Below, piece by piece: positions 6,137 to 24,905 of a stretch of 45,245 nt of DNA. Below the pieces are notes generated by a model, which saw nothing but the letters and a program-made list of their open reading frames with translations, made no database searches and had not been told where the DNA came from. Both the position numbers and the translations under genes were made by a program. The stretch comes from a virus. Within the stretch, counting starts at the first letter, position 1, and each line of letters starts with the position of its first letter. The stretch spans positions 1-45,245 of IMG/VR virus record IMGVR_UViG_3300012929_000028; one strand, written 5' to 3'.

Positions 6137-7189
6137 CTACTCCTTGGTGATCATGTTGTAGAGATCTGACATGTTGGGATCTTGGACTAGTAGTGGTAGG
6201 TTTCCTGAGCGGTCCTTGGTGACATATCCTTCGAGTGCACCTGTCATGAGTATACGTATGATTTCTGTAGCCTTCGACTCGTCACCTGTCTGCTGTTGTT
6301 TGGTATAGAGGTACATGACCTGGTCGAAGAGCCCTGCGACCTGATTGGTCAGCTTGCCTGGTAGGTCAGGCTTCTTCCACAGGGTGCCTCTGTTATCCCG
6401 ATCATCCTGTTCGTGACAGATCAAGATGAAGTTGATCGGGAGATCGCGGAACCGTCGGAGATATAGCCTCATGCGGTTCGTTGACTTACCCCAGTCGTGT
6501 AGAGCGGGGACGTCCGGGTCACGGTCTGGATGACTAGAGATGGTTCCCTTCATCACCCAGTCCATGTTGATCTTCTGTAGCTCAGTACCTGTGTCGACTA
6601 CGACCGTTTTGTAGTCGCAACCGTCCTTGGTGTTGTAGCATTGACGGTCGAGCTCGTCATATACTATCTCGAACTCTTCCCAGGTCACCGACCCTCGAAC
6701 GCTTGGGTCAGGAAGGATCATGATATCCTTGGAGACCTGCTTGATCGTATTCGCACCTGCTTCAGCGTTAACGAACATGACAGGAGACATGGCCTTACAG
6801 AGCGCAGCGGTAGCAGCCAGCCGCGTCTTACCTGAACCAGGTCGTCCGTAGATCAGCTGGTTGATGAGAGGCTTAGCTTCACCGACAGGTGCAATCGGAA
6901 TACCAGCGAACATTCGCACTTCGCGACGTGACATATCGTGTGTGTCTGGTGACGTATTCCTGAAATCGTTCTGCGGTTCAGGAGGAATGACGGGCAAGTC
7001 CTCTACACCTGTTCCTATGAATGAAGCTCTGCCGCCGTAGTTGTCGCGATCAGCTAGGATTCGGAGCTCGTCGCTAATCTCTCCTGCTTGAGGTTCGTCA
7101 GGGTCGTAGTGGTGAATGTCTCGAAGAGGTTCCTTCTTGACTCCGCCGGGAAAGAGATCGTCGTCTGGAATGTCTTCTACATCTTCCAT
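6137..7189 (-). CDS. Sak4-like RecA-fold ATPase, single-strand annealing/recombination
   Basis: This 350-residue protein has an acidic, disordered first 100 residues and then a RecA-type ATPase core: Walker A G115-R-P-G-S-G-K-T122 and Walker B Y-K-T-V-V-V-D199-T. C-H-E-Q-D-D further on fits the sensor region. This matches the AAA_24/Sak4 group of phage recombinases. It overlaps the Cas4-like nuclease stop by 1 bp and precedes the DUF669-like gene, a common phage recombination trio. Confidence 0.8.
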   Translation of the reverse strand: MEDVEDIPDDDLFPGGVKKEPLRDIHHYDPDEPQAGEISDELRILADRDNYGGRASFIGTGVEDLPVIPPEPQNDFRNTSPDTHDMSRREVRMFAGIPIAPVGEAKPLINQLIYGRPGSGKTRLAATAALCKAMSPVMFVNAEAGANTIKQVSKDIMILPDPSVRGSVTWEEFEIVYDELDRQCYNTKDGCDYKTVVVDTGTELQKINMDWVMKGTISSHPDRDPDVPALHDWGKSTNRMRLYLRRFRDLPINFILICHEQDDRDNRGTLWKKPDLPGKLTNQVAGLFDQVMYLYTKQQQTGDESKATEIIRILMTGALEGYVTKDRSGNLPLLVQDPNMSDLYNMITKE

Positions 7190-8388
7190 TAGTATCGCCT
7201 GTCAGTAGAGGGTTCCTGAAGTTCGTAGTAACGTGGTTTGACTTCGTACATTGTGTCTAGAGCGTATTGGTAGTCTCGTCCTGCTGTTCGGTCAATACAC
7301 GGACCTTGGAAAGGACACCATGCACAAGTGAAACGACCAGGAGAGGGATAGATAGCAGGTCCGCTGATCATTTCCTTTGCTTGCAGATAGATGTAATGAC
7401 CGACATTGTCAAGCGTCTGAGCTGGCTTATGCAAGGTATGAACCTGTATAAAACGTGGTCCGTCTGTCTTAAGCCAATTGAGGAACTCGTCGTAGATACC
7501 ACTCTCATATCCGTCAGCGTCGCCCTTTACCAGAGCTTGAAGATATGTCGTGTGATCTGTGTTAAGGCTCTTCGAGACAGAGAACTTACGTCCGAGTCGA
7601 ATTACCTTCATTGGTAGAGGCTCTTCGGGAAATCCCTTCCTGAGTTCTACGTACTTGAAGCCTCGAATGTTCAAGCCCATTGCTACGCGGAAGGCCCAGC
7701 AGTAAGATGCCACCTGGTCGTCGACTTCGAGTACCACGTCAGAGTCTTCTGCTAGCATACGCATGGTTGTCTTCCAGTCGAGAATCCAGAACCCGTCCCA
7801 CTTGTCTCGAACAAGAGCGTCGACTCGACCTTCGTAGACAACAGGAAGTCCGTACCAGAGTTGCCATTCTTCGTATTCGGTGTAGATACGTTCAGGGCCC
7901 GAAGCGAGATATTTCTTCCAACAGCGATCGCATTTACAGTGAAGCTGGTTACCATTCTCGTTAAGGACTGGAACGCTGAACTTATGCTCGACAGCTATCG
8001 GAGTGAAGTCGGCTTGCGGAAGGTGATTTGTGACGTACCACTTGAGCATTCCGATACCGAGCTCGAACGAGGTTTCATAATCGTGCTCTTCCTTCTCATC
8101 TAGTCCTCCGTACTTAGCCCTTGCACGGATGTAGGCAGCACGCTGTTGCTTGCAAGCCTCTATGAAGGCTGTTTCAGCTCGGACACCAAGAGCATACTTG
8201 TCTAGGTGCCACGTTCTTGGATCGTACAGTACTTGCATCGCCCTGTGGAACGCTATGCCAAATTCCAGAGGCGTCGGTGTGATAAGCGGTTGACGGTTCT
8301 CGTTGAACAGCCAGTGATGGCGAAGGCGACAGCCTCGGTAGGAGCGAAGCTCCGAGACATGTATTTCATGAACAAGATCTTCAGCCAC
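7189..8388 (-). CDS. Cas4/RecB-like PD-(D/E)XK exonuclease with Fe-S cluster
   Basis: The 399-residue nuclease has F-G-I-A-F-H-R-A-M at about 43-51, V-D190-A-L, D204-W-K206-T-T and a later Q-V-A-S-Y helix, the ordered motifs of the RecB nuclease fold. C20 plus C-A-W-C-P-F-Q-G-P-C near the C-terminus give the four cysteines of a Cas4/AddB-type [4Fe-4S] cluster. A central insertion has three more cysteines (C-K-C-D-R-C, 151-156). It probably resects or processes DNA ends for the adjacent Sak4-like recombinase. It is the first gene after promoter 8413-8442. Confidence 0.85.
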   Translation of the reverse strand: MAEDLVHEIHVSELRSYRGCRLRHHWLFNENRQPLITPTPLEFGIAFHRAMQVLYDPRTWHLDKYALGVRAETAFIEACKQQRAAYIRARAKYGGLDEKEEHDYETSFELGIGMLKWYVTNHLPQADFTPIAVEHKFSVPVLNENGNQLHCKCDRCWKKYLASGPERIYTEYEEWQLWYGLPVVYEGRVDALVRDKWDGFWILDWKTTMRMLAEDSDVVLEVDDQVASYCWAFRVAMGLNIRGFKYVELRKGFPEEPLPMKVIRLGRKFSVSKSLNTDHTTYLQALVKGDADGYESGIYDEFLNWLKTDGPRFIQVHTLHKPAQTLDNVGHYIYLQAKEMISGPAIYPSPGRFTCAWCPFQGPCIDRTAGRDYQYALDTMYEVKPRYYELQEPSTDRRY

Positions 8389-10101: not shown

Positions 10102-10425
10102 TTACTTGTTCCTTCCGTTGAGTGCACTAAGAGCGTCAGAGCGTTGCTTACGCAGACCATCACAACCTCTCTGCAAGAGCTCGGTGAGTACTTCGTCCGA
10201 TACGAAGGGAGAGTCGACAGCGCTTACCTGCGTAAGGTTCTGACCGATTACAGGGCTCTTGATTACGTAGATGATATGCCACATCAGAGTCATTCCCTGC
10301 GGAGTCTGCATAACCATCGTGCCTGTATCGACTGCGACGATCTCGAGTCCGAAGCTGACCTTGCCCAGAATATCGAGGCCTCGCTTGAGTAGGTCGGAAG
10401 TAGGATGGATCTGGTCCTTAAGCAC
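10102..10425 (-). CDS. Hypothetical protein, 107 residues
   Basis: Unrecognised, mixed alpha/beta, with a beta-rich middle (F-G-L-E-I-V-A-V-D-T-G-T-M-V-M) and a basic helical tail. It overlaps the SNF2 helicase stop by 8 bp, so its translation is probably coupled to the helicase. Confidence 0.65.
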   Translation of the reverse strand: MLKDQIHPTSDLLKRGLDILGKVSFGLEIVAVDTGTMVMQTPQGMTLMWHIIYVIKSPVIGQNLTQVSAVDSPFVSDEVLTELLQRGCDGLRKQRSDALSALNGRNK

Positions 10426-11866
10426 TTACATCTCCTAGGATGTATCGGAGTTCTTGCCACTTGTTAGCTACGCGCTGTAGTCGGCCCATGTCGACCGTAT
10501 TACGAGCTATGATGTCGATTACTTGGACTCGGTTGACTTGACCAATGCGATGAAGTCGATCTTCAGCCTGCTTATTCTTAGTTGGATTCCACGAGCGATC
10601 CAAGAAGACGACGTTAGAGGCTCGGTGAAGGGTGATTCCCTCACCGCCTGCTGCGATGGTGGCTGCCAGTAGTAGCGTGTCGCCTGCTTGGAATGCTCGA
10701 ATATTCTGCTCACGGTCATACTGGGAAACGTTACCTGTATACGCCGCACATGGTATGCCGGCCTTACTCGCTCGGTTGATGACGAGATCGACCATGCTTC
10801 GTGATTGGGAAAAGACGACCAGAGGCTCTGTAGGATTTCCCGCCATGAGCTCCATGAGTCGATCAAGCTTGATAGATGGATCACGTAGAGTTACCTTCCC
10901 TTCTGGATTGAAATCGACAGTTGCTAGAGCCATCTGCTGTAGCCGAACCAGCTGCGCGACTACGACTGGTGAAGATAGAGGTGTGTCTTCGTTCTCGCCA
11001 ATCCAGGCCAGCATGTTCTTACGCATCTGGTCGTAGACACGTCGCTGTGCAGGAGGCAAATCGACATGAAGTTCGGTGTAGTACTTCTCCGGAATGTCAA
11101 GACCTATAGCAGGATCGTCTTTAGTCCTGCGTATATAGTAGGGAGCAATCGAGCGATGAAACTCGGGCATCGCTGCTTTGTTAACGCCTACGACCTTCCT
11201 AAAGGTCGTTCCTAGCTGACGATTCTCCTCGGTCTTTTGCTCACAGTACGTAGCGATAAATCGCCAGTACGACGGAAACTGCTTAGGATAGAGCCAGTTC
11301 AGAATCGACCAGATATCCTCAGGCTTGTCGTCTGCAGGTGTACCGGAAAGCCCCGTCTTGAAGAACGTAGGTAGCTTCTTGAGTGCGACGGTCTGTTGCG
11401 CCTTGCGACTCTTCGCCCTGTGGACTTCGTCAGCTATGACGTGAAACCACTTATGATCCGCCAACTCAGGCATGAGTCGAAGGGCGTCATAGTGGATGAT
11501 AGCGTACATCGGCGGCGTATCGTTGATTCGTCTAACGAAGGCGTCTCGATTCTTTCGATCGATGACTGCTACGTTTCGTTCGATCGACTTGTCATCCCAG
11601 CCATCGTGCTCCGACAGCTCAGAATGCAGTGTCGCCCACCAAGCGTCGTAGTGTGTAGCTAGCGGTGCGACAATAAGTGTAGGACGCTTATAAGGAGGTA
11701 TGAGAATGTGTGCACCTTGGTAGTGCCTCTCTGATCGAAGTTCACGATCAATAAGGATCCCTTCTAGAGTCTTACCTAGGCCCATGTCATCGGCTAGAAG
11801 CCTACTCGGCAGGTTTGGTCTTGCCAGTTTCTTAACTGCTTCTACCTGATGCTTGTATGGCTTCAT
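10418..11866 (-). CDS. SNF2-family DNA helicase/translocase
   Basis: The 482-residue superfamily II ATPase carries Q-like K-H-Q near residue 6, Walker A D-D-M-G-L-G-K32-T, box II A-D146-E-V-H149, T-G-L-S-G-T-P-A (motif III) and the SNF2 C-terminal signature G-E-G-I-T-L with R-L-H-R-I-G-Q. Compact SNF2 helicases of this size are common in actinobacteriophages and are thought to remodel or translocate on duplex DNA during replication or recombination. It lies 3 bp downstream of the preceding gene. Confidence 0.9.
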   Translation of the reverse strand: MKPYKHQVEAVKKLARPNLPSRLLADDMGLGKTLEGILIDRELRSERHYQGAHILIPPYKRPTLIVAPLATHYDAWWATLHSELSEHDGWDDKSIERNVAVIDRKNRDAFVRRINDTPPMYAIIHYDALRLMPELADHKWFHVIADEVHRAKSRKAQQTVALKKLPTFFKTGLSGTPADDKPEDIWSILNWLYPKQFPSYWRFIATYCEQKTEENRQLGTTFRKVVGVNKAAMPEFHRSIAPYYIRRTKDDPAIGLDIPEKYYTELHVDLPPAQRRVYDQMRKNMLAWIGENEDTPLSSPVVVAQLVRLQQMALATVDFNPEGKVTLRDPSIKLDRLMELMAGNPTEPLVVFSQSRSMVDLVINRASKAGIPCAAYTGNVSQYDREQNIRAFQAGDTLLLAATIAAGGEGITLHRASNVVFLDRSWNPTKNKQAEDRLHRIGQVNRVQVIDIIARNTVDMGRLQRVANKWQELRYILGDVSA

Positions 11867-16064: not shown

Positions 16065-16110
16065 ACCTCGTGACGGACTGCCTAACACAAGACAGCTACC
16101 CGACACTAAG

Positions 16111-16184
16111 TAGCGGAGGTTGGATTCGAACCAACGACTTCTAGCTTATGAAACTAGCGGGCTACCGAACTGCCCTACTCCGCT
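16111..16184 (-). tRNA. tRNA with CAT anticodon (Met, or Ile if lysidinylated)
   Basis: A standard cloverleaf: acceptor AGCGGAG/CTCCGCT (7 bp), D-stem GGGC/GCCC, anticodon stem CTAGT/GCTAG with loop TTCATAA, T-arm GTTGG-TTCGAAT-CCAAC, discriminator A, no encoded CCA. Position 1 pairs with 72, so it is an elongator-type rather than an initiator tRNA. It supplements translation in a host whose codon use differs from the phage. Confidence 0.93.
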
Positions 16185-16666: not shown

Positions 16667-16682
16667 AGTATTCAATTGTCAA

Positions 16683-16779
16683 GTAGCTTCCTACAAGGCC
16701 CTGCTAGGCTGACCTGGAATTACCGCCCAGTCACCGAGTACAGCGACGATTTGCCTAGCAGGACGTTGAGGGAAGCTAC
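16683..16779 (-). ncRNA. Structured RNA domain, 9-bp plus 10-bp stems
   Basis: GTAGCTTCC (16683-16691) pairs with 16771-16779, and CCTGCTAGGC (16700-16709) with 16753-16762, separated by an internal loop. A bulged 7-bp stem lies inside. The outer stem overlaps the stop codon of the upstream gene, so the block begins exactly where that gene ends; it could also act as a 3' stabiliser or terminator. Confidence 0.6.
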
Positions 16780-17231
16780 TCGGCTTCCTCGAAGGTACCC
16801 TCAGGCTCTACCTCTGAGCTCGCGTCAGGAGCTTCGACACCGTCTGCATCGGCAGTTCCCGCTGGCGCGGAGGCAGTGGTAGTTGCCTTAGTGGCGCGAG
16901 CCATCCACCAGTCGACGCCCCCCTGTAGGCTGGTGATACCTGGTCGCGTGAGTACCTCGGCCGACTGCTTGTCGTACACGTTACCTTCCTCGTCGTACCA
17001 CTTGACGGGAAGCGCATTGTCGCCCTTACCAGGCGCCTTGACGAAGCCATACATCTGCTGCGGCTTCAGTGACTCGGCAGCGTACTTGTTCTTGACCAGG
17101 TAGTTGCGCAGGTCGATCGGAGACACGACGCCCTTCGGCAGGTCGAACCTCGCGGTCTTCGGTGCTGCTTCCAGCGGGACGGCAGGTGGCGGAGTTGTGA
17201 CGACTCCAACAGCGGTATCAGTCTCAGACAT
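16776..17231 (-). CDS. Hypothetical protein of a phage paralogous family
   Basis: In 151 residues, a disordered Thr/Pro/Ala start is followed by a folded part at about 37-112 (S-P-I-D-L-R-N-Y-L, L-K-P-Q-Q-M-Y-G-F-V-K) and an Ala-rich acidic tail. The L-x-P-Q-x-M-Y block and the following W-Y-D-E-E-G align with the genes at 23782 and 24911, so these are divergent paralogs. ATG 17231 is preferred because GAGGAGG lies just upstream; an earlier in-frame ATG (17279) has no such site. Transcribed from promoter 17298-17326. Confidence 0.75.
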   Translation of the reverse strand: MSETDTAVGVVTTPPPAVPLEAAPKTARFDLPKGVVSPIDLRNYLVKNKYAAESLKPQQMYGFVKAPGKGDNALPVKWYDEEGNVYDKQSAEVLTRPGITSLQGGVDWWMARATKATTTASAPAGTADADGVEAPDASSEVEPEGTFEEAE

Positions 17232-19796: not shown

Positions 19797-19888
19797 CCTC
19801 CTTTCAAAGCCCTGCTCTACGACCTTTCAGAGGCTGTCAGAGTTCTAAGAGTTCTAGCTGACACGTAGAGCAGGACGTTCAGAGGAGG
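19797..19888 (-). promoter_or_regulatory. Structured mRNA leader that pairs with the Shine-Dalgarno
   Basis: On the minus strand CCTCCT (19888-19883) can pair with the AGGAGG ribosome site (19802-19797) of the gene at 19549. Between them are an 11-bp stem (19811-19821 with 19864-19874) and a 6-bp stem (19835-19840 with 19858-19863). CTCTGAANGT after the anti-SD and GCTTTGAAAGGAGG at the SD are shared with the leader at 21040. Translational control by SD masking is inferred. Confidence 0.65.
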
Positions 19889-20080: not shown

Positions 20081-20265
20081 GTTGTTCTCCTGGTGTCTTC
20101 TTCTACCCACTGCTTACAGACCTTGCCTAGCGGCCGACCGGACATAAGAACGAGAGGGATACCCACAGGGAGCCCGACGATCGTAAGGCACAAAGCCGTC
20201 CCTGTGGCTGCCAGTCCTATTCCCTTGAGGAGCGGTAGGACGGACTCCTTAAGCCGTGGCTTCAC
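20077..20265 (-). CDS. Small membrane protein, 62 residues
   Basis: A basic start (M-K-P-R-L-K-E) is followed by about 35 hydrophobic residues, enough for one long or two short membrane helices (G-L-A-A-T-G-T-A-L, I-V-G-L-P-V-G-I-P-L-V-L-M), and a charged C-terminus. A holin-like or superinfection role is possible but not supported by position. Shares bases with both neighbours. Confidence 0.65.
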   Translation of the reverse strand: MKPRLKESVLPLLKGIGLAATGTALCLTIVGLPVGIPLVLMSGRPLGKVCKQWVEEDTRRTT

Positions 20266-20720
20266 TATATAGCGGCCTTCGTTGCCCTATCGGGAGTCTC
20301 CATGAACGTTGTGATCTCGTCGATAAAGGCCGAGAGGCATCCGATGTAGTAGTACAGGAACGCGAAGTCCTCGTTCGGGTCGTACAGGTTGTCGGTAATG
20401 CCGCTGTCGTCATACTTAAAACCGTTCTTCCTACACGTAATACGGTGTACGTCCTTGTAGGTCGCTCCCATACGCTGGAGGGCTCGATAGTTCTCGGCGT
20501 CTTCCAGGAGCTCCGCCCGCTTGGTATCGGCGACGTCCTGCATCTTTTGGAGTGCATCTGCACTCCACAGGAACGTGCGATTCTCGTCCTCGAACGACTC
20601 TGGTATCTCGGGGTCTGGCTCGGGATAACATCCGAGCCACTGCTGCAGGCTGATACCTAGCCTGACTTTCATTGTTCCTGTAAACTCTTGCGGGAAGAAC
20701 TCGAAGTCGTCACTGTACAT
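20265..20720 (-). CDS. Hypothetical protein, 151 residues
   Basis: This soluble, acidic protein has an N-terminal F-E-F-F-P-Q-E-F-T-G-T-M, a helical centre (A-D-A-L-Q-K-M-Q-D-V-A-D-T-K-R) and an aromatic C-terminal segment (F-A-F-L-Y-Y-Y-I-G-C). Not recognised. Shares one base with each neighbouring gene's start or stop. Confidence 0.65.
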   Translation of the reverse strand: MYSDDFEFFPQEFTGTMKVRLGISLQQWLGCYPEPDPEIPESFEDENRTFLWSADALQKMQDVADTKRAELLEDAENYRALQRMGATYKDVHRITCRKNGFKYDDSGITDNLYDPNEDFAFLYYYIGCLSAFIDEITTFMETPDRATKAAI

Positions 20721-20885: not shown

Positions 20886-21035
20886 TTACTCTTCCATCTC
20901 GTTTCCGTCCCAGTCAATAAGGCCGTCGAGGTATTTCTCGGCCATCATGTCTGAACCGAAATGCTGGGCGACAGATGCAGTGTAGTTTCGAAAGTCGCTG
21001 ACATCTTCTACTGAAGTATAAACTACATAACCCAT
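20886..21035 (-). CDS. Hypothetical acidic protein, 49 residues
   Basis: The product begins M-G-Y-V-V-Y-T-S-V-E-D-V-S-D-F. GGAGGAACA directly before the ATG is a very strong ribosome site and belongs to the structured leader at 21040-21090. Family unknown. Confidence 0.7.
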   Translation of the reverse strand: MGYVVYTSVEDVSDFRNYTASVAQHFGSDMMAEKYLDGLIDWDGNEMEE

Positions 21036-21039
21036 TGTT

Positions 21040-21090
21040 CCTCCTTTCAAAGCCTAACTAGTCAGAGACTAGTTAGACCTTCAGAGGAGG
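21040..21090 (-). promoter_or_regulatory. Structured mRNA leader that pairs with the Shine-Dalgarno
   Basis: On the minus strand CCTCCT (21090-21085) can pair with AGGAGG (21045-21040), the ribosome site of the gene at 20886. A perfect 10-bp hairpin (21054-21063 with 21067-21076, 3-nt loop) brings the two together. Flanking sequences (CTGAANGT, GCTTTGAAA) are the same as in the leader at 19797. Confidence 0.7.
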
Positions 21091-21091
21091 A

Positions 21092-21268
21092 CTAGTAGGT
21101 CATGGACCCGTTGTTGATACCGCCGAGAATCTGCTCCTTGTCGGTTGGGGTCAGCTCGTTCCACTCGTCACGGAAAGCGGCCAGACCCTGCATGGTGCCG
21201 TCGGCCAGACGCTGCTTCCCGAAGTACTTCATCGCCACCGCGACGCCACTGGTCTTCTGCTCGGTCAT
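21092..21268 (-). CDS. Hypothetical protein, 58 residues
   Basis: The product begins M-T-E-Q-K-T-S-G-V-A-V-A-M-K-Y-F and has a helical middle with E-L-T-P-T-D-K-E-Q-I-L-G. AAGGAG at ideal spacing precedes ATG 21268, and the hammerhead ribozyme lies directly upstream, so its mRNA would begin with the 3' cleavage product. Family unknown; the processing and strong ribosome site suggest high expression. Confidence 0.75.
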   Translation of the reverse strand: MTEQKTSGVAVAMKYFGKQRLADGTMQGLAAFRDEWNELTPTDKEQILGGINNGSMTY

Positions 21269-21279
21269 GGTTCTCCTTA

Positions 21280-21327
21280 GGACTCATCAGGACCCTCTTT
21301 GGGCCGACTCCTTTCGGAGTTTCGTCC
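21280..21327 (-). ncRNA. Type II hammerhead ribozyme in a 5' leader
   Basis: Reading the minus strand from 21327: GGAC (stem II), GAAA, CUCC-GAAA-GGAG (stem III with GNRA loop), UC, GGCCC-AAAGA-GGGUC (stem I), CUGAUGA, GUCC (stem II). Every conserved core base is present, including A15.1-U16.1 and G10.1-C11.1. Cleavage is expected after C at 21306 (GUC), leaving a 5'-OH end 37 bases before the ATG at 21268. Stem II is the open helix, hence type II. Confidence 0.9.
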
Positions 21328-21335
21328 GTCTTCCT

Positions 21336-21596
21336 TCAGTATTTTGGAGAGGTAATACAGAAAGCTGGAACGTCTTCGTGGTGGTGGACCTTAATCGTCG
21401 TTATCGCTTCTCCTTCGATCTTGTCAGGTCCATCAGAAATAAGCAGCGCCTCCCAGGCCAAACTCCTGAGATCTGCTCTCGATAGGTCGTATAGCTGCTC
21501 GACCATTTCCTCCAAAGAGCTCGGGACGTATCCGCTCTCCCTAGCTTCCTGGATTTGTTCCTTAATGGAGGCCTTCTCTGCATCAGAACGTTGCAT
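21336..21596 (-). CDS. Hypothetical protein, 86 residues
   Basis: A helical N-terminal half (A-E-K-A-S-I-K-E-Q-I-Q-E-A-R-E-S-G-Y-V-P-S-S-L-E-E) is followed by a beta-rich C-terminal part (I-T-T-I-K-V-H-H-H-E-D-V-P). It ends 9 bp before the ribozyme on the mRNA, so cleavage would release its 3' end. Family unknown. Confidence 0.65.
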   Translation of the reverse strand: MQRSDAEKASIKEQIQEARESGYVPSSLEEMVEQLYDLSRADLRSLAWEALLISDGPDKIEGEAITTIKVHHHEDVPAFCITSPKY

Positions 21597-24860: not shown

Positions 24861-24905
24861 AAAAGAAACTACGTAGTATCGATCTGATACTACGTAGTTT
24901 CTTTT
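24861..24905 (-). terminator. Strong intrinsic terminator, 20-bp stem
   Basis: Bases 24861-24880 and 24886-24905 are perfect inverted copies around a 5-nt loop. On the minus strand the stem ends in CTTTT and runs into TGTTC. It directly follows the stop of the gene at 24911. The symmetric A/T ends would let it work on both strands. Confidence 0.88.

Follow-up and report, generated by a model that had tools for sequence, protein, structure and literature searches.

The window comprises the complete linear record of a virus in IMG/VR, 45,245 bases in length. Protein matches place large terminase and portal genes on the rightward strand and a DNA primase gene on the leftward strand, matches that identify a tailed phage, as a sequence-only reading of the window had proposed. 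Among the portal matches, Mycobacterium and Gordonia phages rank first, at 28-30% identity; a terminase search of bacterial genomes returned no relative. Other genes of the record encode an AAA-domain protein (6137-7189), a PD-(D/E)XK nuclease (7189-8388), an SNF2-type helicase (10418-11866, minus strand) and a single tRNA with the anticodon CAT (16110-16184, minus strand). The leftward strand also carries an operon of small genes, which is taken as early from the layout. Within this operon, a 48-base type II hammerhead ribozyme occupies the 67-base gap between an 86-codon gene and a 58-codon gene, on the minus strand at 21327-21280 (Table 1). It is the only hammerhead in the record; a motif scan of the 45 kb detected no type I, no type III and no one-mismatch hammerhead elsewhere.

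Table 1. Features of the hammerhead locus and of the surrounding operon.
Feature	Coordinates	Strand	Basis
Upstream gene, 86 aa; stop codon 8 bases ahead of the ribozyme	21336..21596	-	ORF list, homolog search
Type II hammerhead ribozyme, complete motif	21280..21327	-	sequence, fold, motif scan, covariance model
Stem II 5'-lying strand GGAC, open helix	21324..21327	-	sequence; partner 21280-21283
Core GAAA (G12 A13 A14 A15.1)	21320..21323	-	sequence
Stem III with GNRA tetraloop, ACUCC-gaaa-GGAGU, including A15.1-U16.1	21307..21320	-	sequence, fold
U16.1 C17	21307-21306	-	sequence
Predicted cleavage site, C17 (21306) / G1.1 (21305)	21305..21306	-	inferred from hammerhead chemistry
Stem I hairpin GGCCC-aaaga-GGGUC, predicted 5' end of downstream mRNA	21291..21305	-	sequence, predicted folds
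Core CUGAUGA	21284..21290	-	sequence
Stem II 3'-lying strand GUCC	21280..21283	-	sequence
Shine-Dalgarno AAGGAG of the 58-codon gene, one base past stem II	21273..21278	-	sequence
Downstream gene, 58 aa; weak match to phrog_9674 (unknown function)	21092..21268	-	ORF list, profile match
151-aa gene, same operon	20265..20720	-	homologs in two related phages with a hammerhead 7-10 bases before the start

The element reads GGAC-GAAA-CUCC-gaaa-GGAG-UC/GGCCC-aaaga-GGGUC-CUGAUGA-GUCC, with the slash at the predicted cut. All core bases of the hammerhead are present, namely CUGAUGA, GAAA and the UC that forms the UH at the cleavage site. Three helices meet at this core: stem II of 4 bp, stem III of 5 bp when A15.1-U16.1 is counted, and stem I of 5 bp including one G-U pair. 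Stem II is open and stems I and III are closed, which makes the permutation type II. Folded alone, the segment adopts exactly the hammerhead structure (-18.5 kcal/mol, z -2.0). The complete minus-strand type II hammerhead described in the sequence-only reading is therefore present in core, helices and fold, and its placement directly before the ribosome site of the 58-residue protein is borne out by the position of the Shine-Dalgarno sequence. Stem II ends 11 bases from the ATG at 21268, and the predicted cut falls 37 bases ahead of this codon, at the distance given in that reading. Cleavage would be harmless to both frames because the stop codon precedes the motif and the start codon follows it.

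Detection of the element depends on the covariance model that is used. The Rfam model RF02276 (Hammerhead_II) scores 21327-21280 at 17.8 bits against a gathering cut-off of 37, which is a curation threshold and not a structural feature, and whole-window Rfam scans list no match at the site; the copy is filed as type II by its structure. A covariance model was built from 31 hammerheads of other phages, with the window sequence left out. This model matches the window copy at 34.4 bits (E 3.1e-7 in 45 kb, filters off), with its second-best match within the window at 11.8 bits. The covariance search that had been suggested as a check thus fails with the Rfam type II model and succeeds with the phage model, and the Rfam miss is attributed to model sensitivity in view of the latter E-value. 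In the alignment of the 31 phage hammerheads, 13 of 16 pairs are changed on both sides, a count that leans towards structure as the rows had been selected as paired. Simulated sequence with the trinucleotide make-up of the window (299 Mb) yielded 42 loose motifs, none with helices as long. A chance match, or a plain hairpin near the Shine-Dalgarno sequence with a hammerhead-like core, would agree with the score under the curated cut-off, but it is contradicted by the simulation and the independent model, and related phages have the same element in the same position; we consider this reading hardly credible. The Rfam cut-off overlooks small hammerheads such as this one, which is a small member of the already known phage type II hammerheads (Perreault et al., 2011; PMC3088659).

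The related phages comprise 29 IMG/VR contigs with a terminase at 54-79% identity, the full records of which were scanned with the phage model. Hammerheads are present in six of the 29: three copies each in G003 and G004, one in G005, four in G007 (one weak), three in G026 (one weak) and one in G015. The single hammerhead of G005 is a copy that it shares with both G003 and G004. Relatives with a terminase 76-79% identical to that of the window harbor one to four hammerheads each, in the same early operons; many of the remaining records are fragments, in which absence is weak evidence. The inspected copies lie 7-26 bases ahead of a start codon with a Shine-Dalgarno sequence, a range that includes the spacing in the window.

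Two hammerhead leaders are orthologous between G007 and G026. One precedes the homolog of the 151-aa gene, and the other precedes a gene whose product begins MPD.SVSI. The proteins downstream of these leaders are only 33% and 45% identical, and the stems are largely rewritten; the hammerhead core is intact in both, so that other leaders of the same phage group have kept it. These leaders provide the best evidence here for selection on a ribozyme in this operon, as judged from sequence comparison, and the window's own copy is not covered by it. The window has no hammerhead before the start of its own 151-aa gene. No ortholog of the window copy was found with homologs of the 58-aa and 86-aa genes or with a 1.2-kb DNA search around the locus against phages, the latter returning no match. 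The 58-aa protein has no IMG/VR relative and shows only a weak match over 28 residues to mycobacteriophages such as Faith1, in which the matched locus contains no hammerhead. A 54-aa protein behind a G026 hammerhead was considered as a homolog and rejected on comparison. Two partial homologs of the 86-aa gene upstream were detected, in L142 and L174; no hammerhead follows the gene in L142, and none was found in L174.

The gap after the 58-codon gene contains another RNA element, a near-perfect long hairpin at 21026-21104 on the minus strand (-33.5 kcal/mol, z -6.3), so that the gene is flanked by the ribozyme and this hairpin. It reads UCCUCCU CUGAAGGUC UAACUAGUC ucu GACUAGUUA GGCUUUGAA AGGAGGA, and its outer stem hides the Shine-Dalgarno sequence of the next gene. 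The element recurs on the minus strand at 19797-19888 and 16682-16780, and in L123, L132, L133, L139, L143 and L167. The stems differ yet pair around the kept segments CUGAAsGUC and GRCYUUGAA, the apical part ranges from 3 to over 100 bases, and most copies have the Shine-Dalgarno sequence in the outer stem. It has no Rfam match in the window and may be a site for RNase III or a control of translation bound by a protein. The L139 copy of this hairpin stands ahead of the 151-aa gene homolog, at the leader that carries a hammerhead in L127 and G026; the two elements seem interchangeable there. A perfect 20-bp hairpin with A-rich and T-rich ends, of the shape of a bidirectional terminator, follows a small gene at 24861-24905 (minus strand).

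Type II hammerheads are widespread in IMG/VR, in which a strict pattern detects at least 119 stretches. Complete helices are present in 118 of the 119 listed loci found by the core pattern alone, and these loci hold at least 230 distinct type II hammerheads, with up to 12 per locus. In L104, L117, L100 and L112, a type II hammerhead stands before nearly every gene of a stretch, with at least seven copies in the space of a few kb. Of the 230 listed type II hammerheads, 80% are followed 5-60 bases downstream by a start codon that has a Shine-Dalgarno sequence, with a peak at 20-30 bases, compared with 13% of random control points. Types I and III were scanned with equally strict patterns; among the matches listed, a start lies within 60 bases for 77% of type II, 41% of type I and 22% of type III, all counts being lower bounds from which total abundance is not inferable. 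The higher leader share of type II fits a usefulness of hairpins on both new ends, and other causes are possible. The view that type II is among the less common layouts finds no support in bacteria or phages: Perreault et al. (2011; PMC3088659) report that in bacteria it matches types I and III in frequency, and, like them, it is plentiful in IMG/VR.

The window copy is unusually small. The combined length of its helices falls within the lowest 4% among family members, and its stem I has 5 bp, whereas the commonest class has 6 bp. Longer stems are present in the related leaders L127:5195-5245 and L154:1269-1320. The first base of loop I is an invariant U in model alignment A1, a U that the window loop AAAGA lacks. 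An A beside stem II, present on either side in 79% and 55% of the family, is replaced by C and U. Other members have a long loop I able to pair with the 3' tail; in the window this pseudoknot is absent, as AAAGA has no complement in the tail UAAGGAGAACC. The feature is not defining, since many family members here likewise lack it and it has been reported in the majority of type II hammerheads, not all (Perreault et al., 2011; PMC3088659).

Natural hammerheads owe their speed at cellular Mg2+ to contacts between stems I and II, and those that lack such contacts are slow (reviewed in PMC6155905). Given the 5-bp stem I and the missing tertiary contacts, fast cleavage by the window copy is uncertain and slow cleavage is a real possibility. 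The copy could descend from an active leader ribozyme of the phage group and now be too slow to matter before translation or decay. The short stem I, the loss of the conserved loop I U, the flanking A residues and the pseudoknot, the low helix total and the lack of an ortholog would all accord with such a history; however, every core base and pair is intact within a 67-base gap, which would be disfavoured under decay, stem II is intact and stem III is GNRA-capped. A decayed or slow hammerhead is accordingly judged unlikely, though it deserves some weight. The window copy is a useful test of the smallest natural hammerhead still able to cut.

A different possibility arises from folding of the longer leader. 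When the Shine-Dalgarno sequence is included, the predicted best fold is no longer the hammerhead, and the Shine-Dalgarno sequence pairs with the CUCC of stem III; in predicted folds, the hammerhead probability falls from 0.39 to about 0.02 as the Shine-Dalgarno sequence gets transcribed. Low values are usual across the family under the same folding model, and the window copy is ordinary in this respect. A translation switch, in which the uncleaved leader masks GGAG (21276-21273) with CUCC (21319-21316) and cleavage frees the 58-codon gene, would be in keeping with GGAG bases that are 1-12% unpaired in the full-leader fold and with the last two of them becoming 34-97% unpaired after cleavage, the two G staying mostly paired. 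It would also suit the order of the folds, the hammerhead being best before the Shine-Dalgarno sequence is transcribed and the masking fold best afterwards. Yet the folds are only 1.2-3.0 kcal/mol apart in a model that omits core and tertiary stabilisation, and the masking in the window reaches only the top 4-7% among family members. Cleavage as a general means of unmasking the Shine-Dalgarno sequence was rejected, as 189 family members show no such trend. The switch is therefore quite improbable. A kinetic version, in which the hammerhead must cut before the Shine-Dalgarno sequence appears or else the CUCC of stem III captures it and silences the 58-codon gene, has a slightly slimmer chance still; if true, the speed of cleavage, and hence Mg2+ or polymerase speed, would set translation.

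The reading that we favor, and hold to be probable, is that a cis-acting type II hammerhead cuts the transcript of the leftward early operon after C21306 and that its job is most likely the processing of polycistronic mRNA. The analysis establishes the structure and position of the window copy, its kinship with hammerheads across phages and the retention of such ribozymes in the operons of relatives, and we infer its cleavage, the timing of the cut and the effect on mRNA life or translation. The cut would occur co-transcriptionally between the 86-codon gene and the 58-codon gene, and would turn a long polycistronic phage mRNA into gene-sized messages with ends shielded from exonucleases and 5'-end-dependent decay. 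Type II is the sole permutation that places the cut between two closed hairpins, as follows from its geometry. In predicted folds, the cleavage products carry hairpins at both new ends: the 3' end of the upstream product would be stem III with its GNRA cap, and the 5' end of the downstream product would be the hairpin of stem I. Hairpins at the termini, together with a 5'-OH and a 2',3'-cyclic phosphate, should retard exonucleases and decay pathways that depend on the 5' end, and we therefore prefer processing into stable single-gene messages. Of the role in mRNA maturation or decay put forward in the sequence-only reading, maturation is backed by the leader hammerheads of the relatives.

Processing of long phage transcripts was proposed for prophage hammerheads by Perreault et al. 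(PMC3088659), who reported that other prophage hammerheads cleave in vitro and in vivo. The type II hammerheads of bacteria and prophages in RF02276 (PMC3088659) share with the window copy the core, the open stem II and a position between phage genes, often with several per genome, as well as the proposed cutting of phage transcripts into gene-sized messages. The window copy differs in its 5-bp stem I, the lack of the loop I/3'-tail pseudoknot, a score below the Rfam cut-off and a stem II that nearly touches the Shine-Dalgarno sequence. The HHphage variant of haloviruses HF1 and HF2 (PMC3088659) similarly stands in front of an early phage gene, 13 bases from its start codon, and a mapped transcript end suggests activity in vivo; in contrast to the window copy, it is a structural variant that belongs to an archaeal virus and precedes a helicase gene. 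Self-cleaving RNAs of tailed phages also include the theta ribozymes found in gut phages (PMC10879173), which differ in having an HDV-like fold and in being linked to suppressor tRNAs rather than to leaders of protein genes.

The function of hammerheads in phages was called an open question by a 2017 review (PMC6155905), and a literature search of partial coverage returned, apart from Perreault et al. (2011) and reviews, no more recent study dedicated to type II hammerheads of phages. Type II hammerheads cluster in a narrow interval ahead of start codons, to a greater degree than types I and III, and are retained there while their stems and the neighbouring proteins diverge. This wider leader pattern is of more interest than the single copy in the window. 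It fits the processing of polycistronic mRNA into hairpin-capped single-gene messages, and makes one answer to the question of phage hammerhead function testable.
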